Shown: in pieces, positions 379-44,254 of the stretch
Numbering within the stretch: position 1 is the stretch's first letter
Layout of the letters: each line of letters opens with the position of its first letter
Assembly: GCA_020723285.1 (NCBI GenBank)
Contig: DYJE01000017.1
Location: 1 to 64,000 of the forward strand
DNA: 64,000 bases
From: Desulforapulum autotrophicum
Lineage (GTDB): Bacteria; Desulfobacterota; Desulfobacteria; Desulfobacterales; Desulfolunaceae
Reading direction: 5' to 3'
Translations under genes and position numbers: made by a program
The notes under the pieces: model-generated
Told to the model about the DNA's origin: nothing
Database searches by the model: none
The model's input: only the letters and a program-made list of their open reading frames with translations

Positions 379-786
379 ATGAAAATCCAAGAAATGGTCA
401 TTGATGATTATCCGCATGTAAAAGGCTTGTGGCTTGAGAGCGAATTAAGTGAAGAGCCCGAAGATGAGAAAGAAGAAGTTGAATCTTTGCTAAAATCTTC
501 GCAAGGGGCGGGGTTTGTAGCGAAAAAAAATGGAAAGATTGTTGGAGCCGCTTTATGTGGCAGTGATGGGAGGTATGGATATATTCATCATTTAGCAGTT
601 TCAAAGTCCATACGCAAACAGGGTATTGGAAAATCCTTAGTTGAAGAATGTGTCCGTTTTTTAAAGCGGCGGCATATTCTAATCATGGTTAGAAAAAACA
701 ACGAAATGGGTAACAAATTTTGGAGCCATATGCAATTTCAAGATGCTGATTGGGTCAAAGTTCAATTTATTAAAACAAATCAGTGA
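379..786 (+). CDS. GNAT family N-acetyltransferase
   Basis: A 135-residue single-domain GNAT acetyltransferase, which would move an acetyl group from acetyl-CoA to an unknown amine. The acetyl-CoA pyrophosphate-binding motif A is visible as IRKQGIGKSLVEECVRFL (R/Q-x-x-G-x-G/A) after the beta-strand YIHHLAVS around residues 68-90. Length fits the smallest members of the family. Substrate is not predictable. The gene and its flanks are AT-rich and sit between the RAYT-like gene and the GC-richer TetR/GRE locus, which suggests recent acquisition. The ribosome binding site is weak (gttgagttgaatc). It converges on the epimerase/SDR gene. Confidence 0.85.
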   Translation: MKIQEMVIDDYPHVKGLWLESELSEEPEDEKEEVESLLKSSQGAGFVAKKNGKIVGAALCGSDGRYGYIHHLAVSKSIRKQGIGKSLVEECVRFLKRRHILIMVRKNNEMGNKFWSHMQFQDADWVKVQFIKTNQ

Positions 787-873
787 GGTTGATTATGGCC
801 TGGTCATCGCGTCTACTTTAATAAGATCAGGCCTATTGTTGTTATTCGTTACTCAGACGGCGACAAATTGAAA

Positions 874-904
874 GGGCGAGACCGATGAAACCGAGGCCTC
901 GCCC
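874..904. terminator. Hairpin between convergent genes
   Basis: GGGCGAG (874-880) pairs with CTCGCCC (898-904) across a 17-base loop. It lies between the GNAT stop (786) and the stop of the convergent reductase (929). No U-run follows on either strand, so this is only a candidate bidirectional terminator. Confidence 0.35.
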
Positions 905-928
905 ATCTTTCGAAGATCGATTCTTCCA

Positions 929-2806
929 TTAACGTTCAGCCGGATCCGGCTGTTTTCTTTTTGCCCACCAGGCTGCGGCGGCCACCAGCAGATCCGAGGG
1001 ATATCGGGTGAGGAGGCCGTTGCTGACGCGGTGGTTGAAGTAGAGGGATTTGGCCGCGATACCTGGAATCACCAGGAAGGTTTTCTTACGGATGCCTTTG
1101 ACGATAGCCAGGGCCACTTCGTCGGGCTCCAGAAGTCCGGCGAGGTTTTTAACGATCCGGGCTTCGGCGGGCAGGGTTTTGGCTTCCTCCTCGATAAGGG
1201 GCGTCCGGACTTCCGGCGGACATACCAGGGTCACCCAGATGTTGTATCGTTTCAGTTCGCTCCGCAGGCATTCGCTCATCCCCACCAGGGCATACTTGGT
1301 GGTGCCGTAAAGGCTGTAACCGTACATGCCGATGAGCCCCGCCATCGAAGCGATGTTCACCACCTGGCCCGAACCTTTGGCTTTCATGGCGGGAAGAACG
1401 GCGCTTACGGTGTTCCGCGTTCCGTACACGTTGATTTTCATGGTTTTGTCGAACTGGTCGTAGCTGATGTTTTCAAAACGGTCACCCACACCCACCCCGG
1501 CGCTGTTGATGAGGATATCCGGCGCTCCGAAACGGCCGATGGCCTCATCGATGGTCTTTTTGACGTCGTCGTTGTCCGCCACGTCCATGGGCAGGGAATC
1601 GATGCGCTGGGCTGGCAGCACGGCCTTGTTTTTCAGGTCATGAACCACCGCGTCAAGCCGGGCCTTGCCCCGTGCGAACAGCACGAGATCGCATCCCTGC
1701 TCCGCCAGATGACGGGCTGTGGCAAGGCCGATGCCGCTGGACCCGCCGGTGATGTAGGCCATTTTCCCAGCAAAAAAAGGCGGGTTTGTTTTCAGGGCCT
1801 GCGCCATGTTTTTTTCCATATAGGCTTTAGTCCGGGCCAGCCCTTCGGCGTAAGTGATTCGTGGCTGATATCCCAGTTCGCTTTTTACACGGTCATGGGG
1901 TATCCGGTTGTCCGACCCCACAAGATTCAGCGCCTCACGGGTGATGGGCGGGCGTTTTTTGATATTCAGACCTTTCCAGATCCCTTCACAGCACACGGCG
2001 GCCATGGCGGCCACGAACCGGGGAATGGATCCGGGTTTTTTTGCGCTGATCATGGCGGCGATGTCGGAAAAATAGTCGTTCCAGGTGACGGGAAGTCCGT
2101 CGCAGGCGTTGTAGGCCCGGCCCAGAGCCGCGTCGGTCGATGCGGCAAGGAGAATGATGTCCGCCACGTTGTCCACGTAGGCCAGTCCCGCGTTCATCGT
2201 GCCGCCCGAAATCAGTCCCGGCGATCCGCTTTTTAGGACCGTCACCACGTCATGGAGCCAGGGGCCGGAGCCCGGGCCGTATACGTTGGCGGGCCGGACC
2301 ACCGACAGCTTCATGCCCCGGTTGTGGTGGTATTCGAAGGCCAGCTTTTCCTGGGCCTGCTTGGTCCGGCTGTAGGGTCCGAAGGTGTTGCCGTATCCCG
2401 TATCTTCAAAACAGCTCTGAGTTCGGATCTTGTCCCCGTAAACCACGATGCTTGAAACAAGCACCACACGGGCGTTGTTGGCAAGGGCCTGCTCGAACAC
2501 ATGACGGCTGCCCTCCACGGTGTATTCCCAGTACAGACGTTCATCGCCCCAGTCCGAAACCACGGCGGCCAGGTGGATGATGGTGCCCGCCCCTTTGGCC
2601 GCGCTTTCCACGGCCACGCTGTCCGAAATGCTTCCCCGGATCACGGTGACGTGGCCTTCCCAGGTGGAAGGGGTGGTTTCATCGGGCAGGACCAGTGCCA
2701 TGACGCTGATGTTTTCGGAAAGAAGTCTGTCCATCACGCGGCGGCCGATAAAGCCGGTGGCCCCTGTAACCAGCACGGGCTGGGCCATGGTTCTGATGTC
2801 GATCAT
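929..2806 (-). CDS. Fused NAD-dependent epimerase/3beta-HSD-like and short-chain dehydrogenase protein
   Basis: Two complete Rossmann reductases in one 625-residue chain. Residues ~8-340 are an extended SDR (epimerase / 3beta-hydroxysteroid dehydrogenase type) with VTGATGFIG and the YSRTK active-site motif. Residues ~345-625 are a classical SDR with TGGSSGIG, the NSAGVG motif, catalytic Ser in NIASM and Y-x3-K in YGTTKYAL; its FARG..RLD segment resembles 3-ketodihydrosphingosine-reductase-like SDRs. I start it at 2806, where GGGAG precedes ATG; an upstream in-frame extension to 2950 runs through a repeat element and is unlikely. It is downstream of the GRE-activase operon in the same orientation, across 290 bp carrying two inverted repeat elements. 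A role in reducing a keto-lipid or similar hydrophobic substrate is inference. Confidence 0.85.
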   Translation of the reverse strand: MIDIRTMAQPVLVTGATGFIGRRVMDRLLSENISVMALVLPDETTPSTWEGHVTVIRGSISDSVAVESAAKGAGTIIHLAAVVSDWGDERLYWEYTVEGSRHVFEQALANNARVVLVSSIVVYGDKIRTQSCFEDTGYGNTFGPYSRTKQAQEKLAFEYHHNRGMKLSVVRPANVYGPGSGPWLHDVVTVLKSGSPGLISGGTMNAGLAYVDNVADIILLAASTDAALGRAYNACDGLPVTWNDYFSDIAAMISAKKPGSIPRFVAAMAAVCCEGIWKGLNIKKRPPITREALNLVGSDNRIPHDRVKSELGYQPRITYAEGLARTKAYMEKNMAQALKTNPPFFAGKMAYITGGSSGIGLATARHLAEQGCDLVLFARGKARLDAVVHDLKNKAVLPAQRIDSLPMDVADNDDVKKTIDEAIGRFGAPDILINSAGVGVGDRFENISYDQFDKTMKINVYGTRNTVSAVLPAMKAKGSGQVVNIASMAGLIGMYGYSLYGTTKYALVGMSECLRSELKRYNIWVTLVCPPEVRTPLIEEEAKTLPAEARIVKNLAGLLEPDEVALAIVKGIRKKTFLVIPGIAAKSLYFNHRVSNGLLTRYPSDLLVAAAAWWAKRKQPDPAER

Positions 2807-2843
2807 GTTCGTTTCTCCCAGTTTGAAGGGTTGTTTAAAGAAT

Positions 2844-2924
2844 ATGCCTCCGGCGGCCCTTCCGGGGGACCAGCTTCCCCACGTTCGTGAGGACAAGCTT
2901 GAAAAGCTGGACAAACAGGTTGGG
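2844..2924 (+). repeat. GC-rich dispersed repeat, copy A
   Basis: Begins ATGCCTCCGGCGGCCC, then TTCCGGGGG, then a variable stem-loop (AAGCTTgaAAAGCTGG). The same core occurs inverted at 3016-3064, direct at 61883-61932 and degenerate inverted at 62311-62337. It lies just upstream of the start of the epimerase/SDR gene. Confidence 0.75.
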
Positions 2925-3015
2925 GATAGATACTGTGACCGAATGGCCATCTTGCCCCAATAAATGTCAATAAAAACTGTTGGTTAATTATGGATTAAAT
3001 CCATAATCCGTTTTG

Positions 3016-3064
3016 TCAAACTTTTTCAAAAAGTTTGGCCCCCGGCAGGGCCGCCGGAGGCATG
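3016..3064 (-). repeat. GC-rich dispersed repeat, copy B (inverted)
   Basis: Read on the minus strand: CATGCCTCCGGCGGCCCTG, then CCGGGGGCC, then the stem-loop CAAACTTTTTgAAAAAGTTTG. The GC core matches copy A while the stem-loop is different in sequence but ends in the same TTTTgAAAA tip. Between A and B there is also a short AT palindrome, TTATGGATTaAATCCATAA (2988-3006). Confidence 0.75.
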
Positions 3065-3097
3065 AAATTCTTTGAATTAACACAATCTGCAAACGGT

Positions 3098-4039
3098 CTA
3101 TCCGGCATTCACCACCGATATTCCATAATCCTGGTAAATGCTCTGGCAGCGTTCGAGAACCCCGCCGTCTGAAAACGAGGTCATGGCCTTGTCCTTTTTG
3201 TATGGATCGTCGACACCCACCTTGTCGCTTTTTTCGTGCCAGAGGGGGTTGTAGGCCAGAAGGGCCGCCCGGGTGACGCTTAAGGCGCTCAGAAATTCCG
3301 CAAGGGCCCGGATGTTGTCTTCGGTGTCCGTGATGCCGGGTATGAGAGGGGTCCTGGGCAGGAGAACCTTGCCGTCACGCGCCGCCGTTTTCAGAAGCGC
3401 CTTGAAATTTTCCAGAATCCGGGAGTTGGGAAGGCCGCAGAACTGCTGATGTTTTCTGCTGTCCATGATTTTCAGATCGTAATACATCGCATCCACATGA
3501 GGGTAGACCTGCGCCATGAACCGGGTGAGATCGAAGCTGCCGCAGGTTTCCAGAAGGGTGTGGATGCCTTCGTGTTTCAGGGCCTTCAGAAGATCCGAGG
3601 CGAAATCCATGAACAGCGTGGCCTCGCCGCCGGACAAGGTGACCCCGCCGCCGGAGGTGTCGTAAAAGGGCTTGTCCGGCAGGATTTTGTTCATGATGGC
3701 GTCGACGGTCATGGATTTTCCCACCGGTTCCAATGCCCCGGACGGGCAGACATTTGTGCAGAGGAAACACAAGGTGCAGCGGGTTCTGTCCACGTACAGG
3801 GGATGGGTTTTGGACAGGGCTTTTTCCGGGCAGATTTTGCGGCATTCCCCGCAGTCCACGCAGAGCTTGCCGTCAAAGGCGATTTCCGGCCCGGCTTTCC
3901 GGCTTTCCGGATTGTGGCACCACACGCAGGAAAGGGGGCAGCCTTTGAAAAACACCACTGAACGGATGCCCGGCCCGTCATCCAGGCTGTTGCCTTTGAT
4001 TTCAAGGACAAGCGGAGTTTTCTGTGCTTCATCGGTCAT
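3098..4039 (-). CDS. Glycyl radical enzyme activating enzyme (radical SAM, 8Fe ferredoxin insert)
   Basis: Generates the glycyl radical on the neighbouring GRE by reductive cleavage of S-adenosylmethionine. In 313 residues: radical SAM motif CPLSCVWC (C34, C38, C41), then a two-cluster ferredoxin insert with CVDCGECRKICP (C60-C70) and CTLCFLCTNVCP (C88-C98), then SGGEAT, the SAM-binding GGE motif. The insert is the arrangement found in activases of dehydratase/lyase-type GREs, unlike the short PFL activase. Start 4039 chosen for the AAGGAG eight bases upstream; an ATG overlapping the GRE stop (ATGA at 4084) is the alternative. It follows the GRE by 41 bp, so they are co-transcribed. Confidence 0.92.
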   Translation of the reverse strand: MTDEAQKTPLVLEIKGNSLDDGPGIRSVVFFKGCPLSCVWCHNPESRKAGPEIAFDGKLCVDCGECRKICPEKALSKTHPLYVDRTRCTLCFLCTNVCPSGALEPVGKSMTVDAIMNKILPDKPFYDTSGGGVTLSGGEATLFMDFASDLLKALKHEGIHTLLETCGSFDLTRFMAQVYPHVDAMYYDLKIMDSRKHQQFCGLPNSRILENFKALLKTAARDGKVLLPRTPLIPGITDTEDNIRALAEFLSALSVTRAALLAYNPLWHEKSDKVGVDDPYKKDKAMTSFSDGGVLERCQSIYQDYGISVVNAG

Positions 4040-4080
4040 AACGGATTCTCCTTTTACCGAAACCATCATCTTTTGAGCGG

Positions 4081-7038
4081 TCATCGTCCGAACTCCGCCC
4101 GCTCCACCAGTTCGGTCTGCATGTTCCGGTTGAGACTCACGAAATAGGCGTTGTATCCCGAGATCCGAACCATGAGGTTCTGGTGGTTTTCGGGGTGGAT
4201 CATGGCGTCTTTCAGGGTTTCCGACGACACCACGTTGAGCTGCATCTGCATGCCGCCCATGTCGCAATATGCTTTGGCGTAGGATGTCAGGGTGTCCACG
4301 GTCCTTTCGTGGCTTTCGCCGGGGGCGGGCACCACTTTCACATTGAAGGCGATGTTGTTGTTCATGTTTTTCGGGTCAAGACCCGCCACGTCCCGGAGGT
4401 TCGAAAGGATGTTTTTCGAGGCGTGGGGTTCGGGGGTGAGCCCCGGTGTAAAGGCCTTTCCGGCGAGGCGGCCCGAGGGCAGGGCCCCGGTGAGGGTCCC
4501 GAACGCCACATGGTTGGACATGGACCAGAATCCGGCGGTGTAGCGTCCTCCACGGTAGTTGGTCTGCTCCGCAAAGATGTCGTGGGCCAGCTTGGCCACG
4601 CGGTTGGCCATGGCAAGGGCTTCGGCATCGCCGGAGCCGAACAGGGGTACCTTGGTCTTGATCAGGGCCAGAAGCCCGGGATGATGTTCGAAATTGCCGT
4701 TCACCGCAGTCCAGAGTTCGGCAAAGGTGACTTTCTTTTCCTCGAACACCAGTTTTCTGATGGCCATCATGGAATCGGTGATGTCGGCAAGGCCGATGCA
4801 GGCCGTGCCCGAGGAGTTGTAAACCGCGCCGCCCTGGGTCACATCCTTTCCTTTGTGAAGGGGGCCTTCCATCAGCGCCGAAATGTAGGGCGTGGGGCGA
4901 AGGGCCTGGTGGGCCTCGCCGAGATAGTTGTTGTACTGACAGGTCAGGCCCGCAAGAAACCTGAGCTGTTCGGCAAATGCGTTGAAAAAGGATTCGAAAT
5001 CCGTGAAGTCGCCGTTTGCAACGCTCCCGGTTTGGGGGCCCAGATTCCAGCGCATCAGGGGATGCCGTCCGTTGTTCAGGGCCATTTCAAGAGCTGCCAC
5101 CATGTTGAACATCATGCAGTTCGTATGGCCGATGTGGCGCCCCGAAAGGGTGGGCTCCACGCAGCCCGTGGCGGACCAGTCCCTTAAATGTTCCGCAGGA
5201 TAGTCGAATTCGGCGAGGGACTCCATCACCGCCTCGTCATGATGGATGGACGGGGTGGACAGGGTGTTCACGTTCACTTCACAGAGCCTTCGAAGATACG
5301 TCCGGCTGTTCTTTTCCCGGCTGTACCTGGCGTTGACGTTGGGGTCCCTGATGCCGAGCATTTCCGTGACTTTGAGGAAAATGTAGGTCATGTCGTTCAC
5401 GGCGTCTTCGCCTTTAGGGGTCACGCCGCCCAGGGTGATGGCCTGGTCCGAGGAACTGCCGCCGAACAGGTGGTTGCCGATATCCGGGATCAGGGGGAGA
5501 TGGTCGGTGCAGCGCATGAAAAAGCAGCCGATCAGCTCCACGGCGTGGCGGATATAGGCCTTGCGCGCTTCTGGTGTTTCACATCGCTCCATGTCGGCCT
5601 TGAAATAGGGCTGGAGCCACTGGTCCAGGCGGCCCAGCGAAAAACCCGCGTTGGTGTTTTCCATATGGACGCCGATCCAGATGATCCACAGGGCGTTCAC
5701 CGCTTCGTCCAGCGTGGCGCAGGGGTTTTCCGGCACGCGGCGGCAGATGGCCGCGAGGTGTTGGAGTTCGGCTTTGCGTAAGGGATCGGGCTCCTGTGCG
5801 GCCAGGCGCTCCGCCTCGGTGGCCAGGTTCTTCGCATAGGCCTCGATGCCGGAAAGGCAGATTTCCATGGCCTCAAGGAGATGGTTCTTTTCATCGCTTG
5901 AATCCGGGGTATTGGTCCGTTCCTTTTCAATGTCTGCCCGGATGCCGGAGGTCCCCAGAGCGAGGATTTTTGGGTAATGGAGAATGGTGTGGGACAGGGC
6001 CACGGTTTTCCAAAGGAAACAGGCGGCGAACCGTTCGTCCAGCTGCTGGCAGGTGGGGTTGCCTTTGGTGCTCCGTACCCATTCCCTGAAGTTCCGGTTC
6101 AGCCAGAACGGAAAAATCCGGGTATGAAGGGCTTCGACGGTGTCTGCTGAGATTTCGTAAGGGTTCAGGGGCCGGTGCGGCGCGGTGAGAAGCTCACCCC
6201 AGATCATGGTCCCGTGGGCGTCGGGGTACAATACCACCCCGATTTCCTGGGGCGTGGTGGTGCCCGCGATGAGGTCGTTTTCACGGATCCGGGGTTTTTT
6301 GTGTTCCATCAAGTATTTGAAGGCCCGGGCCTGGCGGAGTTCGGGGACGTGGGGGCTGCCGTCCCGGTCCGTTTCAAAGCCGTTCTCCCTGAACCAGCGG
6401 GTCAGGATGTCCGGGCGTTCATGGCAGAGGGCGGGTTTTGTTTTGAAATGGAGGGTGAGAAAGGTTTTCAGCCGGGGGAAATCGTCGAGGCCCATGTCCG
6501 GAAGATAGGGGTCGTCGAGAAACAGGACGCCGGGGTCTTCCTGGGTTTCAGTCCGGAGCTGGGGGAGCTTTCGTGAGTCGATGCAGGTTTTTGAAGCCTT
6601 ATCAACATCGTAATGCCGGTTTTCCGCCCGGGTTTCCTTTTTGAGTTTGGCGATCTGGATGGGTTTAAGAAGAAGGGACAGGTAAAAGTTGATCACCTGG
6701 AGATGGCCCAGGTTCCCCAGGGTGAGCATTCGGTTTTCCATGAGTGCGATCATCAGCTTGTTGGGCGGTTCCACCGCCGCCTCCTTCAGCGCCTGCTCGT
6801 CCTTGAACACCAGCATGGCGTCGGGTTTTGCAGGCATCCTTCCTGTCACCCGGACCTTGCCGCCCTTGAAAATCAGGGCCTGGGCCACGGATCCGTTTTC
6901 CGTTTTTACACCGAAGGTGAAGTCAATCCAGCCGTCCGCAGACCGGAGATACCGGTTCAAGGCTTTGCGGTGATTGAAATTCGCGGCGAAAAACCGCAAA
7001 AAAAGTGACGTCAGTGTGTTGCTGATTTGTTTTCCCAT
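4081..7038 (-). CDS. Glycyl radical enzyme with N-terminal SCP2-like lipid-binding domain
   Basis: A 985-residue glycyl radical enzyme, about 150 residues longer than ordinary members. The C-terminal radical loop VRISGYNAYF carries the radical glycine (G961), and the active-site cysteine lies in SATGCVEPT (C626). The G-C-V-E signature with Glu two residues after Cys is that of the dehydratase/C-N or C-S lyase branch (glycerol and propanediol dehydratase, CutC, IslA), not PFL (CCVS). Residues ~1-130 do not belong to the GRE fold: they read like an SCP2 sterol-carrier domain (GKVRVTG..PAKPDAMLVFKDE...LMENRMLTLGNLGHL). A GGGG-rich ribosome binding site precedes the ATG. TetR sits upstream and the activase downstream. 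No microcompartment or cut genes are nearby. Substrate unknown; the lipid-binding domain suggests a hydrophobic one, by inference. Confidence 0.9.
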   Translation of the reverse strand: MGKQISNTLTSLFLRFFAANFNHRKALNRYLRSADGWIDFTFGVKTENGSVAQALIFKGGKVRVTGRMPAKPDAMLVFKDEQALKEAAVEPPNKLMIALMENRMLTLGNLGHLQVINFYLSLLLKPIQIAKLKKETRAENRHYDVDKASKTCIDSRKLPQLRTETQEDPGVLFLDDPYLPDMGLDDFPRLKTFLTLHFKTKPALCHERPDILTRWFRENGFETDRDGSPHVPELRQARAFKYLMEHKKPRIRENDLIAGTTTPQEIGVVLYPDAHGTMIWGELLTAPHRPLNPYEISADTVEALHTRIFPFWLNRNFREWVRSTKGNPTCQQLDERFAACFLWKTVALSHTILHYPKILALGTSGIRADIEKERTNTPDSSDEKNHLLEAMEICLSGIEAYAKNLATEAERLAAQEPDPLRKAELQHLAAICRRVPENPCATLDEAVNALWIIWIGVHMENTNAGFSLGRLDQWLQPYFKADMERCETPEARKAYIRHAVELIGCFFMRCTDHLPLIPDIGNHLFGGSSSDQAITLGGVTPKGEDAVNDMTYIFLKVTEMLGIRDPNVNARYSREKNSRTYLRRLCEVNVNTLSTPSIHHDEAVMESLAEFDYPAEHLRDWSATGCVEPTLSGRHIGHTNCMMFNMVAALEMALNNGRHPLMRWNLGPQTGSVANGDFTDFESFFNAFAEQLRFLAGLTCQYNNYLGEAHQALRPTPYISALMEGPLHKGKDVTQGGAVYNSSGTACIGLADITDSMMAIRKLVFEEKKVTFAELWTAVNGNFEHHPGLLALIKTKVPLFGSGDAEALAMANRVAKLAHDIFAEQTNYRGGRYTAGFWSMSNHVAFGTLTGALPSGRLAGKAFTPGLTPEPHASKNILSNLRDVAGLDPKNMNNNIAFNVKVVPAPGESHERTVDTLTSYAKAYCDMGGMQMQLNVVSSETLKDAMIHPENHQNLMVRISGYNAYFVSLNRNMQTELVERAEFGR

Positions 7039-7068
7039 AATCCCCCCTTCATGATCGATGTTTGACCG

Positions 7069-7740
7069 TTAGAACAGGCGTTCCCCCCGGTCGATACGCT
7101 GTTTCAGATCGGATATCTGGAAGGTGAGTTCCAGAGTCCGCCGTTCGACAAAATCCTCCACATCCTCCAGGACTTCGTGCAGCAGGCGGCTGTTGCACAG
7201 CGTCACCAGGCCGTGGAGGTCAGACCAGAACCGCACGATCTGGTGCAGCACAAAGGCCCTCTTTTTTTCTCCACCCGCCGGAAGGTAGGCGTCGATGGGT
7301 TCCATGAACATGGAAAGGCACCGGAGGGCGTTCTCCTTTTCCTGCCGGGCCACCGGTTCGATGCCGGTGCCCACGTAATCCAGGTATTTGGGTGTGTGCA
7401 GGTTGAACATGATGTCGTAATAGCTGGGATACGTCCGGCCAAAAGCCACATAGGCCCGGATCATTGCTGCGAACCGGGTTTCGAGATCCTCGATGTCCCC
7501 CGCGCCCTCCGTCAGATGGCTGTGGAGCTTTTCAAACCCCCGCATCCGGATCATCAGGTTCAGTTCATCTTTGTTGGTGTAGTAATTGTAGATGGTGGTG
7601 GCAGTGACGCCCAGGCGTGATGCAATTTTCCGGACGCTGAGGTTGTTGAACCCTTCGTCGATGATGATGTCAAGGGCGGTATCCAGGATTTTTTCCCGTG
7701 TCTGTTCCAGCATTTCCGCACTCATGGGCGCTTTGGGCAT
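7069..7740 (-). CDS. TetR/AcrR family transcriptional regulator
   Basis: A 223-residue repressor. The N-terminal HTH reads ILDTALDIIIDEGFNNLSVR then IASRLGVTATTIYNYYTNKD, the classic TetR recognition helix (TTIYNYYTNKDEL). The remaining ~150 residues are the variable ligand-binding and dimerisation domain. Start 7740 is set by AAGGAG seven bases upstream; a longer in-frame extension would cross the operator. It is first in the operon with the GRE (30 bp downstream) and activase, so it most likely controls them and itself through the two palindromes at 7759-7783. Ligand unknown, probably the GRE substrate or a CoA/lipid derivative (inference). Confidence 0.92.
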   Translation of the reverse strand: MPKAPMSAEMLEQTREKILDTALDIIIDEGFNNLSVRKIASRLGVTATTIYNYYTNKDELNLMIRMRGFEKLHSHLTEGAGDIEDLETRFAAMIRAYVAFGRTYPSYYDIMFNLHTPKYLDYVGTGIEPVARQEKENALRCLSMFMEPIDAYLPAGGEKKRAFVLHQIVRFWSDLHGLVTLCNSRLLHEVLEDVEDFVERRTLELTFQISDLKQRIDRGERLF

Positions 7741-7756
7741 AACGTCTCCTTGTTTG

Positions 7757-7796
7757 AATAACAGTGTTAAAATAACAGTGTTATTTTTAAAGTCAA
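7757..7796 (-). promoter_or_regulatory. TetR-GRE operon promoter with two palindromic operators
   Basis: Two exact copies of the palindrome TAACA-N-TGTTA (7759-7769 and 7773-7783), 14 bp centre to centre. On the minus strand a TTGACT -35 (7796-7791) and TATTTT -10 (7774-7769) with 16-bp spacing enclose or overlap both. This arrangement is what a self-repressing TetR protein would use. Seen directly; the regulator assignment is inference from position. Confidence 0.65.
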
Positions 7797-8060
7797 GAAT
7801 TTTTCGTTTTATACGGGCATCAAGAAATAGCCCACTGAATTTTTTATTGATTCCATGAATGAAATGTGGGATTGTCACAGCGGATGATGGTGGGGAACCA
7901 TAAACCTTGAACGACAGATAAAGAACCACCAGGTCTCATCATTATATCATTCAATCAGATCCATGAACGGTAACCCTTGGCCCATGATCGTGATGGCCAA
8001 CTCCGGGATGCTACCGCTTGATGAGGCCATTCAAACAAAGGTTATGCAGGGGTAAGAGAC

Positions 8061-8480
8061 ATGAAGCTGACGCTTGTGCGGCAGGAACGCAGGAAACATG
8101 AACGATACACCATCGAGGGCCCGGTGTATGCCGCAGTGGGCCCTGAATTTCAGTGGATGGGACACATTGTGAACATCAGCCGGAGCGGGGTGGCCTTCAC
8201 GTACGTCAAACAAAAAGACGGTGCACCGGTACAGGGTGAAACGCACATCCAGCTCAGCGACAACGACGATGCGCTGGGGGTTTTTCCGTTCATTTCCATC
8301 AGCGATACGGGCGGCGACATGGCCGATCCGTACAGTTCCGTAGAAATTCGCTATCATCGCGGACGGTTCGGCCGCCTTGACGCCCAGCAGAAAACAAAAC
8401 TGATGTCGCTCATCGCGATGAAGGCTGCCGTCGAAAGCGATCACCCGTCACCCTCCCTGGCGGAACGCTCCCGCCGTTAA
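8061..8480 (+). CDS. PilZ domain protein
   Basis: A 139-residue protein that is essentially a single PilZ domain, the c-di-GMP receptor fold. The two binding signatures are present: the basic RQERRKHERY near residue 8-17 (R-x3-R) and NISRSGVAF around residue 40 ((D/N)-x-S-x2-G). No membrane segment. It is preceded by a 120-bp gap after the TetR promoter region and stands alone. A second PilZ protein is 3 kb away at 11096-11485. What it regulates cannot be told. Confidence 0.8.
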   Translation: MKLTLVRQERRKHERYTIEGPVYAAVGPEFQWMGHIVNISRSGVAFTYVKQKDGAPVQGETHIQLSDNDDALGVFPFISISDTGGDMADPYSSVEIRYHRGRFGRLDAQQKTKLMSLIAMKAAVESDHPSPSLAERSRR

Positions 8481-8627
8481 CAGAACTCATGACATTTCAT
8501 GCTGCCGGTGGACGAATGCCCGAACGGCAGGCGGGAAAAAAACGTCCCATGTAAAATTTCATCCACTCCGTACAGCATTCACCCCATCGAACACCATAAC
8601 GATTGATTTTATCGACGGTGAACGATA

Positions 8628-8646
8628 CATGTGTGTTTCACACATG
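8628..8646 (+). promoter_or_regulatory. Perfect hairpin directly before the helicase ribosome binding site
   Basis: CATGTGTG-ttt-CACACATG, an 8-bp perfect stem with a three-base loop, ends immediately before the AAAGGA ribosome binding site of the DEAD-box helicase (start 8663). Such a position could modulate translation of the helicase, for example with temperature or by its own binding; this is inference. Confidence 0.5.
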
Positions 8647-8662
8647 AAAGGACAAACGAATA

Positions 8663-9898
8663 ATGAAGTTCGACAAATACCCCATCGCGGAAGAAATCAA
8701 AAAAAACCTGGATCTTTTAGGGTTCAGAAAACCCACGGACATCCAGTTCAAGGCCATTCCGTCGATCCTGAACGGCGAGGACGTTCTTGCGGTGGCCCAG
8801 ACCGGCACAGGGAAAACCGCCGCTTTCGCCATCCCCATCATCGCAAAGATTCACAGCGCAAAATCGAGCAAACGGTCCGTGGGCATCAAATGCCTGGTCA
8901 TGGCGCCGACTCGTGAACTGGCCATCCAGATCGGGGATGTGTTCAACCGCATCGAGCGGCACACGAAAACCAAAACCTTCGCCCTGGTGGGCGGTGTGGA
9001 GCAGGACCCTCAGATCCAGAAACTCCAGGACGGCATCGACATCCTTGTGGCCACGCCTGGCCGGATGTTCGATCTGATCAGCCAGGGGTTTATCCGCATC
9101 GATAAAATCGACACCCTGGTTCTTGACGAAGCGGACCGCATGCTGGACATGGGATTTATCGACGACATCAAATCCATCAAGAAAAAAATCATCCGGCAGC
9201 ACCAGACCCTGTTCTTTTCCGCCACCATCGACAAGGACATCAAGAAGCTGGCCTTTTCCCAGGTGAAGAGTTCGGCCATCCGCATCCAGATTTCTCCGGA
9301 AGACCGGGTGTCAAGGAATGTGTCCCACGCAGTCATGATGGTGGACATGGACGACAAGCGCTTTTTTCTCGAACGCTACATCAACGATCACCCCGATGCC
9401 AAAATCATGGTCTTCGTTCGGACCAAAGTCCGGGCCGAACGGGTGGCCAAGGCCATGGAGCGTGCCGGAATCATGACCGTCACCATCCACGGCGACAAGG
9501 ACCAGAAAGACCGGAACCTGGGGATGAGCGCCTTCCGCCACGGGGAATGCCGGGTTCTTATCGCCACCGACGTGAGCGCGAGGGGCATCGATATCCCGGA
9601 CGTCACCGCCGTGATCAACTACGATCTGCCTAAAGATCCCGAAAACTATGTCCACCGTGTGGGCCGCACAGGCCGTGGCACCCGGAAGGGCGTGGCACTG
9701 TCCTTCTGCAGTTCCTCCGAGCTTCAGGACCTTGAGGCTGTTGAGAAGTTTCTCGAAAAACCTGTGGAACGTCTCACGGTGACGAAGAACGCCTACGAGG
9801 AAACCATTGCCTATCAGGGCACGGGTGATGACGTGATGGCCCTGATCGCGGCCCATGAACAGCATATGGAAAAGAAAAAGAAGCGTAAGGGAAAATAA
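8663..9898 (+). CDS. rhlE: DEAD-box ATP-dependent RNA helicase, RhlE type
   Basis: A 411-residue helicase with all motifs in order: Q-motif (GFRKPTDIQ), Walker A AQTGTGKT, Ia PTRELAIQ, Ib TPGR, II DEAD, III SAT, V TDVSARGID and VI HRVGRTGRG. It has a short lysine-rich tail (EKKKKRKGK) rather than an RNA-binding domain such as DbpA's, which fits RhlE-type helicases acting in ribosome assembly or mRNA turnover, often in the cold. Start set by AAAGGAC upstream of ATG. Monocistronic, with a hairpin in its leader. Confidence 0.93.
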   Translation: MKFDKYPIAEEIKKNLDLLGFRKPTDIQFKAIPSILNGEDVLAVAQTGTGKTAAFAIPIIAKIHSAKSSKRSVGIKCLVMAPTRELAIQIGDVFNRIERHTKTKTFALVGGVEQDPQIQKLQDGIDILVATPGRMFDLISQGFIRIDKIDTLVLDEADRMLDMGFIDDIKSIKKKIIRQHQTLFFSATIDKDIKKLAFSQVKSSAIRIQISPEDRVSRNVSHAVMMVDMDDKRFFLERYINDHPDAKIMVFVRTKVRAERVAKAMERAGIMTVTIHGDKDQKDRNLGMSAFRHGECRVLIATDVSARGIDIPDVTAVINYDLPKDPENYVHRVGRTGRGTRKGVALSFCSSSELQDLEAVEKFLEKPVERLTVTKNAYEETIAYQGTGDDVMALIAAHEQHMEKKKKRKGK

Positions 9899-10002
9899 AA
9901 AAGAAGCTTGCCGCAGAGCTTTCAATCATCGTATATTTTGCCGTTTGCAGGAGGGCACCCGCCCAAGTTTACTCACGTTTCAATTAAAACCATGGGGGAT
10001 TC

Positions 10003-10626
10003 ATGAAAAACGTAATTATCGGTGTTTTATTCGTCGTGTTCCTGTCGTTCAGCGCGTGGGCGGAAGATCCGGCCCAGGAAGCCATCTCAAGCCTTCAGAC
10101 AGCCCAGGGCCTGATCAAAAGCGGGGATACAGCCAAAGCCATCGAGGAGATCAACTACGCCCTGTCCAAATTGAACGAAGTCACGGCCAGCGGCATGATC
10201 AAGTTTATTCCCGCGGCTCCCAAGGGGTTCAAGCTGGAAAGAAAGAGTTCTCAGGGCATGGGTCAGGGTGCCATGGCTGTGGGCAATGCCGGGGCCGAGG
10301 GCGAATACAGCGGCGCCAATGAAGCCAGTGTGAAAATCACCATCGCCACCGGCGGCATGACCGGCAAAATGGGAAGCCTCGCCAGTTTCGGTGCCATGTT
10401 CGCGGGGATTTCCCAGAACAGCGGCGGCAGCGGCAGCAAAAGCGTCCGCATCAAGGGCTTTACCGGAACACTGACCTTTGACGGGGAAAACAAAAGTGGG
10501 AACCTCACCCTCCAGGTGGGTGAAAAGACATCGGTCAACATCGAAGGAAGCAACATAGACAACGAGAACGTCCTCAAATCCTTTGGTGAACTGATGGATC
10601 TCAACGGATTGTCCAAAGCGTTCTGA
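10003..10626 (+). CDS. Secreted protein of unknown function
   Basis: 207 residues with a clear Sec signal peptide: MKNVIIGVLFVVFLSFSAWA, cleavage expected after AWA. The mature part starts with a TPR-like helical pair (PAQEAISSLQTAQGLIKSGD..KAIEEINYALSKL), then a glycine- and alanine-rich middle and a beta-rich end with repeated short strands (GFTGTLTFDGE.., GNLTLQVGEKTSVNIEGS). No cysteine or metal motif. I do not recognise the family. Probably periplasmic. It lies between the helicase and the CbiX-like gene, all on the plus strand but with independent spacing. Confidence 0.75.
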   Translation: MKNVIIGVLFVVFLSFSAWAEDPAQEAISSLQTAQGLIKSGDTAKAIEEINYALSKLNEVTASGMIKFIPAAPKGFKLERKSSQGMGQGAMAVGNAGAEGEYSGANEASVKITIATGGMTGKMGSLASFGAMFAGISQNSGGSGSKSVRIKGFTGTLTFDGENKSGNLTLQVGEKTSVNIEGSNIDNENVLKSFGELMDLNGLSKAF

Positions 10627-10656
10627 TCGTTTAAAAAAGACGGACAGGGCATCAGT

Positions 10657-10689
10657 CCCTGCGGGCGGGCTTTCGGCCATCCCGCAGGG
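10657..10689. terminator. Stem-loop after the secreted-protein gene
   Basis: CCCTGCGGG (10657-10665) pairs perfectly with CCCGCAGGG (10681-10689). It lies 30 bp after the stop at 10626 and before the next ribosome binding site. There is no T-run behind it, so termination is only a guess. Confidence 0.4.
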
Positions 10690-10726
10690 CAAGTTCATCC
10701 ATGATTTAACGGAGAAAGGGGTCTCC

Positions 10727-11089
10727 ATGAAAGCCTTGCTGATCCTCGCACACGGCAGCCGAAAAAAAGAATCGAACGACGAGGTGGTGAAACTGGCTGA
10801 ATCTCTGGATCGAACGGAAAACAGCGGATTTGGCAAGGTCCTCTGCGCTTTCAACCAGTTCAGTGAACCTTCCGCAGAGCGGCAGATCGACATTCTGGCC
10901 GGCCTGGGAGCGACCCATATCACGATCCTTCCGTATTTCATTGCGGGGGGGAGTCATGTGACGGAGGATATTCCACGGCTTGCCGACGAAGCCAGACAGA
11001 ATCATCCGGGGATTGATTTTAAGGTCACCGCCCATCTGGGGGCCTTCGAAGGCGTCAAAGATTTGATCATGCGGGAGGTTGGAGTATGA
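10727..11089 (+). CDS. CbiX/SirB-like sirohydrochlorin chelatase
   Basis: A 120-residue protein of the short CbiX type, which inserts cobalt or iron (or nickel in F430-type pathways) into sirohydrochlorin as a homodimer. The metal/substrate histidine motif LAHGSRKKESN opens the chain, and the second signature PYFIAGGSHVTEDIP (around residues 68-82) supplies the second conserved His. Strong upstream GGAG/GGGG. No other cobalamin or siroheme gene is adjacent. Whether cobalt or iron is the metal cannot be decided. It converges on the PilZ gene with 6 bp between stops. Confidence 0.85.
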   Translation: MKALLILAHGSRKKESNDEVVKLAESLDRTENSGFGKVLCAFNQFSEPSAERQIDILAGLGATHITILPYFIAGGSHVTEDIPRLADEARQNHPGIDFKVTAHLGAFEGVKDLIMREVGV

Positions 11090-11095
11090 TGCGCG

Positions 11096-11485
11096 TCATT
11101 CGTCTTTGGACCGGTGCTTGCTCCTCTGGTAGGCTTTGACGAAAGCGACAATGGCGTCGATCTGCTTGGCTTTGGGGCCGGTGAATTCGATGCCGGACAT
11201 GAAGTATCCCGTGACAGGATCCATGGTGGAGTAGACAAGGCGACCGTCCACTTTCACAGGGTTTCCGTTCAGATCAATGGTCATCAGAAGGACGAACACC
11301 CCTTTAAGGGGATTGGGTGTTTTAAGGAGGATGCCGTTCTGACTGAGGTTGAGGGTCCGGCCTTTCCCTTTTCCCAACGCTTTTCCATCCTGATCGTACA
11401 AGGTGTAATCCACCAGATTCGATGTTTCAATCCTTGGATTTCTGCGATGATCCACCGTTTTTTTGTCCTGATCTGATTGTTCCAT
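11096..11485 (-). CDS. PilZ domain protein
   Basis: A 129-residue single PilZ domain. The c-di-GMP arginine motif is HRRNPRIETSN (residues ~13-23) and the second signature is LNLSQNGILLKT (around residue 50). The SGIEFTGPK segment near the C-terminus is the usual last strand of the PilZ barrel. The gene precedes the degenerate NtrC-like gene by position but both are on the minus strand with the NtrC-like gene upstream (139 bp), so co-transcription is possible. Function otherwise unknown. Confidence 0.8.
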   Translation of the reverse strand: MEQSDQDKKTVDHRRNPRIETSNLVDYTLYDQDGKALGKGKGRTLNLSQNGILLKTPNPLKGVFVLLMTIDLNGNPVKVDGRLVYSTMDPVTGYFMSGIEFTGPKAKQIDAIVAFVKAYQRSKHRSKDE

Positions 11486-11623
11486 GCATTTTTACCCGGT
11501 TATTAGTTCGGTATGTGGTTCATGGTCTCTGTATACCATGGAACATTCAGGGGCTCAAGGGTGAAAATGAACGCTGATCAGCCGCTTAAGGGGCTGGAGG
11601 CCGTTAAGGCCGGACAGGAAAAA

Positions 11624-13072
11624 TCAGTCGGCCACGTCCGCCTGCTTGAGTTTACGCCACAAGGCCCCCCGGCTGATTCCTAAAACCTCCGCGGCTCTTG
11701 AGCGGTTGTTTCCCAGGGCTTTCATGACTTTGATGATATGCTGGAGCTCCACTTCAGCGAGGGTGAGCAGGTTTTGATCCTCGAACAGCTCGGCGTGCTT
11801 GACCGGAGACCGGAATTTTTCAGGAAGATGCCTGAGTTCGATGGTCTGTCCGTCGAGGAGGATTACGGCGCGTTCGATGAGGTTGGCCAGTTCCTGAACA
11901 TTGCCCGGGAAGGCATAGGCTGCGAAGGCGGACAGCACGTCGTCGGCTATGGCTTTGACGGTTTTTTCATATTCCTTGGCGAACTTGTCCATGAAATAGC
12001 TGCAAAGGGGGGCGATGTCGTCCTTCCGCTCCCGCAAGGGGGGGATGGTGATGACGAAGCCAGCGACCTGATCGAAAAAATCAGGATGAAACGCGGAGTC
12101 CCGGACTTCATCGGAGACGGCGAAAGGACAGGCGGCCATGATCCGCACGTCGGCATGCACCGGCTCTTTTCCGCCTTTCCGGGTCATGACGTTGAGATTC
12201 AGTACCCTGGCCAGTTTTTCCTGAGTGTCTGCCGTCATATCCTGGATGTTGTCAAGAAAGATGGATCCGTCGTGGCAGGATTCGATGAGACCGGTCCTGA
12301 GGGGTTTCCGGCTTTCCACGCCCCATAACTCGTTTTCCAGGGTTTCCGGAGACATCATGCCGCAGTTGACACCGATGAACCGGTTGTTTTTCCGGTGGCT
12401 CAAGCTGTGGATGGCACGGGCCACGATTTCCTTGCCCGTCCCGTCTTCACCGATGACCAGAACATGGCTTTCGATCATGGCCGCGTTGGCGATTTTCTTT
12501 TTCAGTGCTTCCATGGACCCTGTGCCGCCGATGAGCCAGTGGGAGTCCCGGTTGTAGAACTTGTTTTCAGGGACGATAAGGTCAAAAGGGTCCTGGGTAG
12601 TTTTGGTGCTCGAAATCTTTTTTTCAGGAACCGGGACGCTGGTAGCCATGGCCGGTGCTTTCGGCGGGGTTTCCTCGGATCCGGTATAGGGAAGAAAAAC
12701 GGCCTTGTCCGATTCATTCATCTTGCGGATGAAGGACCAGAACAGGCGCATGTTGTCTTTTTCAAAATACGCGGTGTGGAGGGCCTCGGCGGCCTGACGC
12801 ATCTTTTTGTTTCCGTAGCCGGTGAGAAGAACGGTTTTGATGTCGGGGTTGATTTTTCGGAGTCTTGCCAGAGTCTCCAGCCCGTCCACCTCCGGCATAT
12901 GAAAATCCACGATGGCCAGGTCCACCTGGTGCGTCCGGCACAGTTCCACAGCTTCAGCCCCGGACGTTGTTTTGAGCGGAATGAAGCCCATGAGTTCGAT
13001 GCGTTTGGACAGGGAATCGAGAAAGCCTTTTTCATCATCGACGATTAAAATTTTTCTGCCACTGAAATCCAC
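11624..13072 (-). CDS. NtrC-like response regulator with degenerate sigma-54 contact loop
   Basis: 482 residues in three parts: receiver (D56 in IVDFHMPEVDG, Lys in YFEKDNM at 105), AAA+ domain, and a C-terminal Fis-type HTH (NNRSRAAEVLGISRGALWRK). The AAA+ domain keeps a Walker A (GEDGTGKE, 208-215), but the sigma-54 loop GAFTGA is absent: the segment after ENELWG reads VESRKPLRTGLIES. Walker B is IFLDNI, with Asn where the catalytic Glu normally stands. It therefore probably binds DNA but may not activate sigma-54 RNA polymerase. It is downstream of the double-receiver protein on the same strand and shares its unusual YFEKDNM motif. Confidence 0.9.
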   Translation of the reverse strand: MDFSGRKILIVDDEKGFLDSLSKRIELMGFIPLKTTSGAEAVELCRTHQVDLAIVDFHMPEVDGLETLARLRKINPDIKTVLLTGYGNKKMRQAAEALHTAYFEKDNMRLFWSFIRKMNESDKAVFLPYTGSEETPPKAPAMATSVPVPEKKISSTKTTQDPFDLIVPENKFYNRDSHWLIGGTGSMEALKKKIANAAMIESHVLVIGEDGTGKEIVARAIHSLSHRKNNRFIGVNCGMMSPETLENELWGVESRKPLRTGLIESCHDGSIFLDNIQDMTADTQEKLARVLNLNVMTRKGGKEPVHADVRIMAACPFAVSDEVRDSAFHPDFFDQVAGFVITIPPLRERKDDIAPLCSYFMDKFAKEYEKTVKAIADDVLSAFAAYAFPGNVQELANLIERAVILLDGQTIELRHLPEKFRSPVKHAELFEDQNLLTLAEVELQHIIKVMKALGNNRSRAAEVLGISRGALWRKLKQADVAD

Positions 13073-13200
13073 GTTAATATCCTGTTGTTTTGAAAATAAC
13101 CGTGACGATCAGGAGGCCCTGTCATTTCGGACGAATTGAAAAATTAAGGAGAACCGCGATTTCTCCATTCGGCCGAAACGACAAAACATATGTTCAAGAT

Positions 13201-13239
13201 CCGGGTTCCCAAGGGGCTGTGCGACCCTTGGGAACCCGG
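13201..13239. repeat. Perfect 15-bp inverted repeat
   Basis: CCGGGTTCCCAAGGG (13201-13215) and its exact complement (13225-13239) enclose a 9-base loop. It lies between the double-receiver gene (stop 13265) and the NtrC-like gene (start 13072). Without a U-run it is either an atypical terminator/attenuator of the minus-strand transcript or a REP-like element. Confidence 0.7.
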
Positions 13240-13264
13240 AATTACTGTACAAAGACCACGGTTG

Positions 13265-14062
13265 TTATTTTTTGTTGGGGTCGATGTCCATGGCGTCCTT
13301 GATGTCGCCGCCGTGGGCCATGCCCACCGCCGCCATGGTGGTTTCGAATTTTCTCATCGCATTCTTGATGAACCCCCAGAAGCTGTTCATGTCGGCTTTG
13401 TCGAAGTAACCCGCTTCGAGGGCCGCAGTGGCTTCTTTCAGTTTGTCATCGCCGTAAGCCGTAAGGAGAACGGTCTGGACATGCTCATCCAGTTCCTTGA
13501 GTTTTGAAACAACCTGAAGGCCTTCCATGTCCGGCAGTCGATGATCCACGACCGCCACATGGATTTTCTTGCCCGCCGCCGCTGAAACGGCTTCAGCACC
13601 GGTTGAAGCGAGAACGGGTGCATAACCTTTCAGTCTGACGCGGTCCGCCATGGACTTCAGGAACATCTCATCGTCATCCACCAGAAGAATGTTGATGGTG
13701 TCGATGGGAAAGCGCATCAGAAATTCCCAGAACCCGCCCATGTTGTCTTTTTCGAAATAGGCGGTGTCAAGGGCCTTGGAGGCGCTTTCGATCTTGTCAT
13801 CACCGTGGGCGGTCAGAAGAACTGTCTTGACGGCAGCGTCCAGTTTCTTGATCTGGGCCACAAGGGATACGCCTTCGGTATCGGGAAGTCTCTGGTCGAT
13901 GATGGCCAGGTATATTTTATTGCTCTTGGCGATGTCAACCGCTTTTTGTCCATCGGTGGCGGTCAGTGTGTTGAAACCTTTGAGTTTGATACGTTCAGCC
14001 AGTGAAAAAAGAAATTTTTCGTCGTCGTCCACCAGCAGGATGTTCAGATTTTCCTTGGTCAT
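13265..14062 (-). CDS. Tandem double receiver-domain protein
   Basis: 265 residues consisting of two CheY-like receivers and no output domain. Receiver 1: acidic pair VDDDEKF, phospho-acceptor D56 in IIDQRLPDTEG, Lys in AYFEKDNM. Receiver 2: VDDDEMF, D173 in VVDHRLPDMEG, Lys in GYFDKADM. The -YFxKxxM- form and the following FWxF segment recur in both and in the NtrC-like protein, in place of the usual K-P pair. It is likely a phosphate acceptor or relay within the cluster. Start 14062 has AAGGAGGG upstream. The neighbours are the DUF1634/TauE pair upstream. Confidence 0.9.
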   Translation of the reverse strand: MTKENLNILLVDDDEKFLFSLAERIKLKGFNTLTATDGQKAVDIAKSNKIYLAIIDQRLPDTEGVSLVAQIKKLDAAVKTVLLTAHGDDKIESASKALDTAYFEKDNMGGFWEFLMRFPIDTINILLVDDDEMFLKSMADRVRLKGYAPVLASTGAEAVSAAAGKKIHVAVVDHRLPDMEGLQVVSKLKELDEHVQTVLLTAYGDDKLKEATAALEAGYFDKADMNSFWGFIKNAMRKFETTMAAVGMAHGGDIKDAMDIDPNKK

Positions 14063-36228: not shown

Positions 36229-36265
36229 CGCCGGGCCGTTTCACAACGGCCCGGCGTTTTTTTTT
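36229..36265. terminator. Rho-independent terminator, probably bidirectional
   Basis: CGCCGGGCCGTT-tcac-AACGGCCCGGCG is a perfect 12-bp stem followed by nine T residues. It ends the acyl-CoA dehydrogenase transcript, and its T-run reaches the stop codon of the convergent kinase gene (36264). Confidence 0.93.
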
Positions 36266-44115: not shown

Positions 44116-44254
44116 TGATCCGGTGAAAAAAATAGATTTTTTATTCGCTCTTTTTTAAATGGACACTTGACAGGCGCTGTCATTCATTTTATGAGAAGAA
44201 AAAATCCACTATAAAATTCAAACATCTAAATGAGATACACCGGATTGTGCATTG

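Follow-up and report, generated by a model that had tools for sequence, protein, structure and literature searches.

What does a glycyl radical enzyme (GRE) do with a domain of the sterol carrier protein 2 (SCP2) type at its N-terminus? The question is raised by an open reading frame (ORF) near the start of a stretch of 64,000 nucleotides from Desulforapulum autotrophicum (contig DYJE01000017.1 of assembly GCA_020723285.1, positions 1 to 64,000), referred to here at its full length as the window. The eliminase GREs named in two sources have glycerol, propanediol, choline, isethionate and hydroxyproline, all small soluble molecules, as their substrates (PMC7077986, PMC8473560). A prediction made from the letters of the window had suggested that this ORF joins a complete dehydratase- or lyase-type GRE to an SCP2-like domain of some 130 residues. 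We report that the protein belongs to a clade that is an uncharacterised lineage of GRE eliminase, and that its substrate is probably a long-chain amphiphile, not a small soluble molecule.

The enzyme and its N-terminal domain

The window ORF encodes a complete GRE of the eliminase class. In the Pfam search, residues 199-847 were assigned to the PFL-like family PF02901 (E 4e-172) and residues 863-967 to Gly_radical PF01228 (E 6e-23), and the two motifs that the original prediction had pointed out, the cysteine C626 in GCVE and the radical glycine G961, were both found (Table 1). The full-length predicted model (pLDDT 91.9, pTM 0.92) has the ten-stranded barrel fold of the eliminase GREs, with a VIA Z of 46.8 to 1r8w, 2f3o and 9rcp. 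The propanediol/glycerol dehydratases and 2f3o are the nearest structures to this predicted model (Z 46.4-46.8, root-mean-square deviation ~1.8-2.0 over ~770-780 residues). The host assembly (5.44 Mb, 97% complete) encodes four PFL-like proteins, comprising the window GRE, the paralogues C19 and C75 with the same N-terminus (55 and 47% identity), and C88, which has no such N-terminus.

Because a single-sequence Pfam search of residues 1-144 or 1-160 of the window protein returned nothing, we used profile and fold comparison for the N-terminal domain. We aligned the N-termini of 66 family members, among which SCP2 (PF02036) was the commonest match, detected in 35 at E ≤ 1 (best 2.4e-5), compared with 5 for the next family. 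Searched against the PDB, the family profile ranked SCP2 chains first, weakly (E 0.03). With the AlphaFold2 model of residues 1-160 (pLDDT 81.7), the best Foldseek match was UbiJ-SCP2 (E 4.8e-6, query TM ~0.5). All 32 Foldseek matches at E ≤ 0.001 were SCP2 proteins or alkylsulfatase-type hydrolases, the latter matched over a part of the chain that we take to be their SCP2-like domain. VIA aligned the same model to SCP2-type structures at Z ~10-13 over ~100-120 residues, headed by the alkylsulfatase part (13.4) and SCP2-like-2 (3bdq, 12.7), and the next rows were CFA synthase (Z 8.4) and Eis or methyltransferase structures (≤ 6.8). In BFVD, a single phage protein matched at E ≤ 0.001. The SCP2 assignment thus failed in the HMM (hidden Markov model) search of the window chain and held in the HMM tally of the family and in the modelled fold. 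Judged by the model, we consider the SCP2 fold established for residues 1 to ~130, and it is well supported across the family. The full-length model also hints that the domain is docked on the core and not free, because pTM reaches 0.92 in a chain of which the extra domain makes up ~14%.

In a sister lineage, the GRE lacks this N-terminus, and a small gene follows the GRE, usually ahead of the activase. The separate proteins have 153-178 residues in the first six seen, and profile-profile comparison matched the fused domain to them with a probability of 98.6 (E 5.7e-16). Searched singly against Pfam, two of four separate proteins (c6) matched SCP2 (E 0.0093 and 0.0064). Weak matches of these proteins to DUF7884 (E 0.001, one protein), SET7_N, ComJ and the like were dropped since they were not common to the members. 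A PDB profile search with the separate-protein alignment, which has few rows (four), gave no SCP2 match and three rows only, all at E ≥ 0.34.

We searched 194 genomes of the order in six frames with the domain profile, taking E < 1e-9 as a strong match. The profile matched in 44 of the 194 genomes, and 61 matches were strong. Long frames (465-1074 aa) hold 47 of the 61, and all 40 of these that were examined are GREs. The other 14 lie in short open frames of 151-207 aa. Thirteen of the short-frame genes immediately follow a split-type GRE on its 3' side; the remaining one begins ~200 bases into its contig and is followed by an activase. An activase follows the short-frame gene in 10 of the 14 cases; none occurs in the available stretch for G002, G004 and G005, and that of G070 runs into the contig end. 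The domain therefore occurs with a GRE of this lineage in all 53 examined of the 61 strong matches. Eight weaker matches (E 1.6e-6 to 9e-4) were left out of these counts, and one weaker match, L181, had no GRE match. The pairing of GRE and SCP2 is old and probably functional, because the sister lineage has the domain as a separate gene directly beside the GRE.

By NCBI rank, the carriers comprise 28 Thermodesulfobacteriota, 17 genomes assigned to Myxococcota, most of which bear the title 'Deltaproteobacteria', 15 Bacillota, 5 Actinomycetota, 2 Bacteroidota, one each of Chloroflexota, Pseudomonadota, Planctomycetota and Spirochaetota, and 9 that carry no rank. Most carriers are metagenome-assembled genomes (MAGs), so that an isolated odd placement may come from misbinning. 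One carrier is Desulfatibacillum alkenivorans (copy in L074), a species for which tools to inactivate the cardiolipin synthase genes are said to be lacking (PMC11150832).

Some genomes hold several copies. Fused SCP2-GREs are clustered in L097 (8947-18915, three copies with one activase), L082 (two, 7608-13551), L089 (three) and L083 (two), and G004, a single-contig genome, has four fused copies and one split copy. Family GREs that are split over two frames, each in a single assembly (L079:192-3239 and L180:3347-5819), could reflect sequencing errors or decaying genes. Two split GREs contain an in-frame TGA. Selenocysteine in the split GRE of L029 was not counted, as the called ORF starts 3' of the match start and the TGA is probably upstream of the start.

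Place among glycyl radical enzymes and active-site residues

We placed the family in a tree of 53 GREs, built by a quick method with SH-aLRT support only. The family rows were trimmed to the catalytic part, so that the SCP2 trait was not used. The 29 fused and 6 split members form one clade (SH-aLRT 100; fused members 100, split members 95), and the CutC, HypD, HpsG, glycerol/propanediol dehydratase, PflD, YbiW and PflB references all fall outside it. Glycerol dehydratase (GDH) and propanediol dehydratase (PDD) group with each other (SH-aLRT 100), apart from the 35 rows of the family. Closest to the family among the remaining rows are Archaeoglobus 2f3o and a pair formed by C88 and a GRE from an Acinetobacter plasmid; several backbone forks of the tree are open. 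The original prediction had asked whether this branch is uncharacterised, and the tree places the window GRE inside no reference family with an assigned substrate.

Equivalog models of full-length GREs gave the window protein at most 388 bits against cut-offs of 994-1150. These include HypD (NF043068, 388.3 bits, cut-off 1100), CutC (TIGR04394, 372.6 bits, cut-off 1050) and the sulfopropanediol dehydratase HpsG (NF048011, 362.1 bits, cut-off 1000). The broad subfamily TIGR01774 gave 457.9 bits against a cut-off of 678.2. A member of a known family (CutC, HypD, HpsG or glycerol/propanediol dehydratase) that carries an accessory domain and acts on a known substrate would share the class, the CXE motif and the fold of the window protein. 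We consider this highly improbable, given the separate clade, scores of 362-388 bits against cut-offs of 1000-1100 for CutC, HypD and HpsG, and the different substrate residues described below.

For isethionate lyase, benzylsuccinate synthase and arylacetate decarboxylase, none of which is in the tree, the comparison used scores and structures. This comparison bears on the idea of a fumarate-adding alkane enzyme of the alkylsuccinate or benzylsuccinate synthase type. The idea has some appeal: the carriers include Desulfatibacillum alkenivorans, Smithella and Desulfosudis, several carriers come from groups with hydrocarbon degraders, and the split lineage has a small separate gene. It is nevertheless already disfavoured, and we give it hardly any credence, since phmmer scored 346 bits to 5i2a against ~200 to BssA/MasD, and VIA gave Z 46.8 to the dehydratases against 36-39 to BssA/MasD, the BssA/MasD-type synthases being compared by score and structure and not in the tree. 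The CXE motif of eliminases is also present, and no CXXC was found in the small separate protein in the six of six checked.

Two observations concern other GREs of the tree. The Acinetobacter GRE is encoded with an activase on a mobilizable plasmid of Acinetobacter towneri (L128:5887-9262, NZ_CP127890.1) and pairs with the host protein C88 with a support of 100; a similar match occurs on a Moraxella osloensis plasmid. In L078, a second, distant GRE-like protein (10533-13049; 838 aa, 30% identity over 684 residues) is encoded 5.4 kb away from the SCP2-GRE. In the tree this protein groups with the long PflB branch, a placement that is unsure.

Active-site positions were mapped by sequence alignment, not from coordinates, over the 29 fused and 6 split rows. 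One source describes CXE as a conserved eliminase feature whose Glu bonds the substrate hydroxyl, a common contact site formed by IslA-Gln193, CutC-Asp216 and HypD-His160, and a CutC Thr502 that seems to block migration chemistry (PMC8473560). In the family, the radical residues and the CXE Glu are invariant, and H350 falls at the common contact site (Table 1). At the CutC T502 site, T639 is Thr in all 29 fused rows, and the split rows have Thr in one of six and Ser in five of six. K344 is at the place of GDH Tyr158.

Much of the remaining GDH pocket differs in the fused rows. GDH Asn156 is replaced by Leu, Met, Val or Ile in 23 of 29 (Leu in the window), Tyr336 by Ser in 23 of 29, Tyr339 by Asp in 20 of 29, Ser282 by Gly in 25 of 29 and Asp447 by Asn in 20 of 29 (Asn in the window). 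Among GDH residues, whose roles are assumed here, Asn156, His164 and Asp447 are presumably the substrate residues; the window protein keeps His164, and the other two are changed. Read from the alignment, the residue pattern fits direct 1,2-elimination on a hydroxyl-bearing substrate that would be neither glycerol nor choline, in a reshaped pocket.

Neighbouring genes and regulation

The features of the GRE unit are collected in Table 1.

Table 1. Features of the SCP2-GRE unit and of the encoded protein, in window coordinates
Feature	Position	Strand	Evidence
Fused reductase, extended short-chain dehydrogenase/reductase (SDR; OleD/HpnA/3beta-HSD-like) plus classical SDR	929-2806	minus	PF01370, PF01073, PF00106; ATG 2806, alternative 2788
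Terminator-like hairpin after activase	3038-3061	minus	Terminator scan; 10 pairs, 8 G-C, T-rich tail
GRE activase, radical SAM with ferredoxin insert	3098-4039	minus	PF04055, Fer4; TIGR02494 283.9 bits, cut-off 174.35
GRE with N-terminal SCP2-like domain, 985 aa, ATG start	4081-7038	minus	ORF call, Pfam, predicted model (pLDDT 91.9, pTM 0.92)
GRE catalytic core, residues ~186-985	4084-6483	minus	PF02901, PF01228; VIA Z 46.8 to glycerol/propanediol dehydratases
G961, predicted glycyl radical site	4156-4158	minus	RISGY from 958; invariant in 35/35
E628, Glu of CXE	5155-5157	minus	Invariant in 29/29 fused, 6/6 split
C626, predicted thiyl radical Cys of CXE	5161-5163	minus	GCVE from 625; invariant in 29/29 fused, 6/6 split
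H350, substrate-contact site of CutC Asp216/HypD His160 (GDH His164)	5989-5991	minus	His in 24/29 fused, 6/6 split
K344, near-invariant Lys	6007-6009	minus	27/29 fused, 6/6 split; Lys in none of ten reference rows printed
Linker, residues ~133-185	6484-6642	minus	Poorly conserved in alignment; pLDDT 76 (141-150), 74 (151-160)
SCP2-like domain, residues 1 to ~132	6643-7038	minus	Domain model, Foldseek, VIA, family Pfam tally
TetR-family regulator	7069-7740	minus	PF00440, PF13305; ATG 7740 behind AAGGAG
Tandem palindromic operator candidate, two TAACANTGTTA sites 14 bp apart	7757-7785	minus	Just upstream of TetR start

An 8Fe activase and a TetR regulator had been predicted to be linked to the GRE, and both are in place. 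The activase adjoins the GRE on its 3' side, with an ATG at 4039 behind AGGAGA and alternative ATGs at 4066, 4069 and 4084. It has a radical-SAM CX3CX2C motif and two ferredoxin-type CX2CX2CX3C motifs, and by motif we therefore expect the insert to bind 8 Fe and the SAM site to hold a third cluster. The regulator, with PF00440 and PF13305, is directly 5' of the GRE. The expectation that microcompartment genes are absent was also borne out, as the shell family PF00936 was not detected in the 97%-complete host assembly; it is present in 2 of 14 control genomes. The terminator-like hairpin after the activase is only suggestive, because the scan found 14 such sites against 9.5 ± 3.1 in shuffles.

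Close relatives encode the two SDRs individually, on the 3' side of the activase. The NCBIfam models nearest to the extended SDR of one close relative are HpnA, OleD and SdmB, all below cut-off, and the same list of six models at E ≤ 1e-15 also holds LegB and dTDP-glucose dehydratase. We compared the loci of the best 80 of 86 relatives, 50 of which extend 4 kb to either side of the GRE. Genes found on the same strand and no more than 4 kb away in these 50 loci comprise the activase (38), TetR (25), classical SDR (13), extended SDR (9) and aldehyde ferredoxin oxidoreductase (4). A wider neighbour count covered 113 loci, among which some genomes are represented by a second copy. The classical SDR was present in 25 of the 113 (23 of these on the same strand and ≤ 3 genes away), the OleD/HpnA-like extended SDR in 18 (17 of these ≤ 2 genes away) and an aldehyde oxidoreductase in 9 (5 of these 1-3 genes 3' on the same strand). 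The aldehyde oxidoreductase is contiguous with the GRE in L051, L061, L062 and L094, and L061 and L062 are close relatives.

These partners can also be read in terms of sphingoid-type amino alcohols, in which C-N cleavage would release ammonia and a 3-hydroxy aldehyde, and the partner reductases would be KDSR- or CerR-like. The classical SDR may resemble 3-ketosphinganine reductase, and an aldehyde oxidoreductase adjoins some copies. One source counts the C-N lyase CutC among the eliminases (PMC8473560). The near-invariant K344, if it lines the pocket, would be odd beside an ammonium group, and no sphingolipid-specific gene was found among the annotated neighbours, which are part of all neighbours. 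We therefore regard a sphingoid substrate as having a slim chance of being correct.

Further neighbours were recorded and not used as evidence. DUF6765 proteins near split-type GREs (L133:4221-5297, E 1e-93; L137:13049-14167, E 7e-89) are a possible further partner of the split lineage. L109 encodes an FGGY kinase and a glycerol-3-phosphate-oxidase-type protein (a single-locus lead), L087 and L101 encode CrtI-like oxidoreductases, and L092/L017 have a sulfatase neighbour.

In the window, TAACANTGTTA has 2 matches against 0.01 expected. The operator candidate overlaps a promoter-like site (7796-7769), the sole such site in 700-8100; this is weak evidence because shuffles give 3.1. Among relatives, TAACANTGTTA lies near 13 of 44 TetR starts, including that of the Spirochaetes MAG L109, against ~0.008 per 400-bp stretch expected from the overall rate, and the relatives are not independent. 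The other 31 starts have no TAACANTGTTA nearby, and the window's own copy (L001) is among these because its called TetR start is too far upstream. Allowing ≤ 2 mismatches, the pattern occurs in 13 rows in the host genome, 3 of which are the promoter of the GRE unit. The other 10 rows (9 places, all with 2 mismatches) are not clearly above the 5 obtained with a reversed control. We claim no second operator target, because the only other palindromic copy in the host genome (C48, L163 position 5784) sits between two convergent ORFs.

Elsewhere, the window encodes a chain-length/tyrosine-autokinase-type exopolysaccharide protein (36264-38438, TIGR01007 above cut-off) and a polyprenyl glycosylphosphotransferase, also an exopolysaccharide gene (44252-45697, TIGR03025 above cut-off).

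Proposed reaction and relation to known systems

The reading that we favour, and to which we give an even chance, is that of an amphiphile-specific radical eliminase giving a carbonyl product. The original prediction had suggested radical chemistry on a hydrophobic or acyl substrate, which is plausible but unproven. It gains indirect support because the domain accompanies the GRE in the 53 examined strong matches, because the neighbours include OleD/HpnA/SdmB-like and other short-chain reductases, and because two bulky pocket residues of the diol dehydratases are now Ser and Asp.

We infer lipid binding, chemistry at the head group, a carbonyl product, the roles of the partners and repression by TetR as follows. 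The SCP2-like domain, either within the GRE chain or, in the sister lineage, as a small subunit of its own, would take the hydrophobic tail of the substrate from a membrane or lipid aggregate and present the polar head, with a hydroxyl next to a leaving group. The substrate class that we infer has a 1,2-diol-like head, the most likely candidates being alkyl- or acylglycerols, glycerol phosphates and long-chain diols. The activase would generate the radical at G961, and C626 would become a thiyl radical and abstract hydrogen from the hydroxyl-bearing carbon. E628 would accept the hydroxyl proton, and the neighbouring group would leave by direct 1,2-elimination to give an aldehyde or ketone. The linked short-chain reductases would reduce this product or, in some lineages, the aldehyde oxidoreductase next to the GRE would oxidise it. 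TetR would repress the unit via the tandem operator.

Several results weigh against an amphiphile-specific eliminase. Searched alone, the window N-terminus matched no Pfam family at E ≤ 1, PF02036 included, and 31 of the 66 family N-termini had no SCP2 match. The contact residue H350 is not universal, being E, P or Q in 5 of the 29 fused rows, and the pocket position of K344 is unsure because the alignment with CutC Tyr208 crosses a two-residue gap. Some pocket positions are bulkier in the fused rows, where GDH Gly155 is replaced by Phe in 26 of 29, Leu639 by Phe in 24 of 29 and Tyr640 by Trp in 27 of 29. In the window, the fused SDR sits behind the terminator-like hairpin, and no partner enzyme is universal among the 50 loci.

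These bulkier positions are compatible with the main rival, in which the SCP2-like domain is structural (subunit contact, activase docking, stabilisation or sensing) and the GRE dehydrates a small soluble diol. The nearest catalytic structures act on propanediol and glycerol, and the domain seems to pack on the core, as the pTM hints. Similar folds also appear in the Eis and methyltransferase rows (Z 6-7), and such proteins are not known to be lipid carriers. The structures of glycerol dehydratase, CutC and HypD, however, align without such a domain (from model residue ~160-190), the glycerol pocket has lost its Asn and Tyr residues, the SDR neighbours are of lipid type, and microcompartment shell genes are absent. 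We judge a structural role to be unlikely, yet the alternative most deserving of attention.

Within the reading of an amphiphile-specific eliminase, a more specific proposal is that the SCP2-GRE cleaves off water or an alkoxy (or acyloxy or phospho) group at the glycerol moiety of alkylglycerol or of archaeal or bacterial ether lipids, and that the SCP2 domain serves to extract the lipid. The SCP2-GRE would then be the first lipid-processing GRE eliminase and would supply a missing entry step of oxygen-free ether-lipid breakdown in sediments, digesters and the rumen. This proposal is speculative, and we hold it with low confidence.

More generally, a clade in several anaerobic lineages with an SCP2-type domain, in the same chain or encoded next door, suggests that the substrate of the radical elimination is insoluble in water. 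Anaerobic bacteria may take fatty molecules apart through radical chemistry by an undescribed route. If the substrate is a glycerol ether or another membrane lipid, the clade bears on lipid breakdown without oxygen. The SCP2 domain, the operator candidate, the neighbouring reductases and the conserved K344, H350 and E628 offer handles for a substrate search. In a literature search, no paper among the matches listed links GREs to SCP2; one fungal genome paper (PMC9172201) holds both terms.

We compared the window protein with known systems. It shares the GRE eliminase fold, CXE, the radical Gly and a His at the GDH His164 site with the B12-independent glycerol and 1,2-propanediol dehydratases (1r8w, 5i2a, 9rco). 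It differs from them in its identity of 27-29%, its separate clade and its changes at GDH Asn156, Tyr336, Tyr339, Asp447 and Tyr640, and their chains as aligned do not cover the SCP2 domain. With CutC it shares the eliminase class, CXE and the Thr at the T502 site, whereas it has His for CutC Asp216 and CutC falls in another clade. Three unassigned GREs, Archaeoglobus 2f3o, the host protein C88 and the Acinetobacter plasmid GRE, are the nearest other tree branches, at an open fork, and both C88 (788 aa) and the plasmid GRE (~800 aa) are without the SCP2 domain.

For the N-terminal domain, the SCP2 and UbiJ-SCP2 proteins (6h6p, 1ikt, 1c44) share the fold of window residues 1-126 at an identity of ~8-19%, and differ in that the domain here is fused to or beside a GRE. 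The alkylsulfatases SdsA1 and Pisa1 have a core that is presumably different and hydrolytic. They carry a domain of the same fold (chain residues ~531-664, VIA Z 10.9-13.4) in an enzyme acting on long aliphatic chains, at the C-terminal end, unlike the N-terminal position in the window GRE. One of the closest folds of this SdsA1-type precedent was solved with 1-dodecanol (2cfz).

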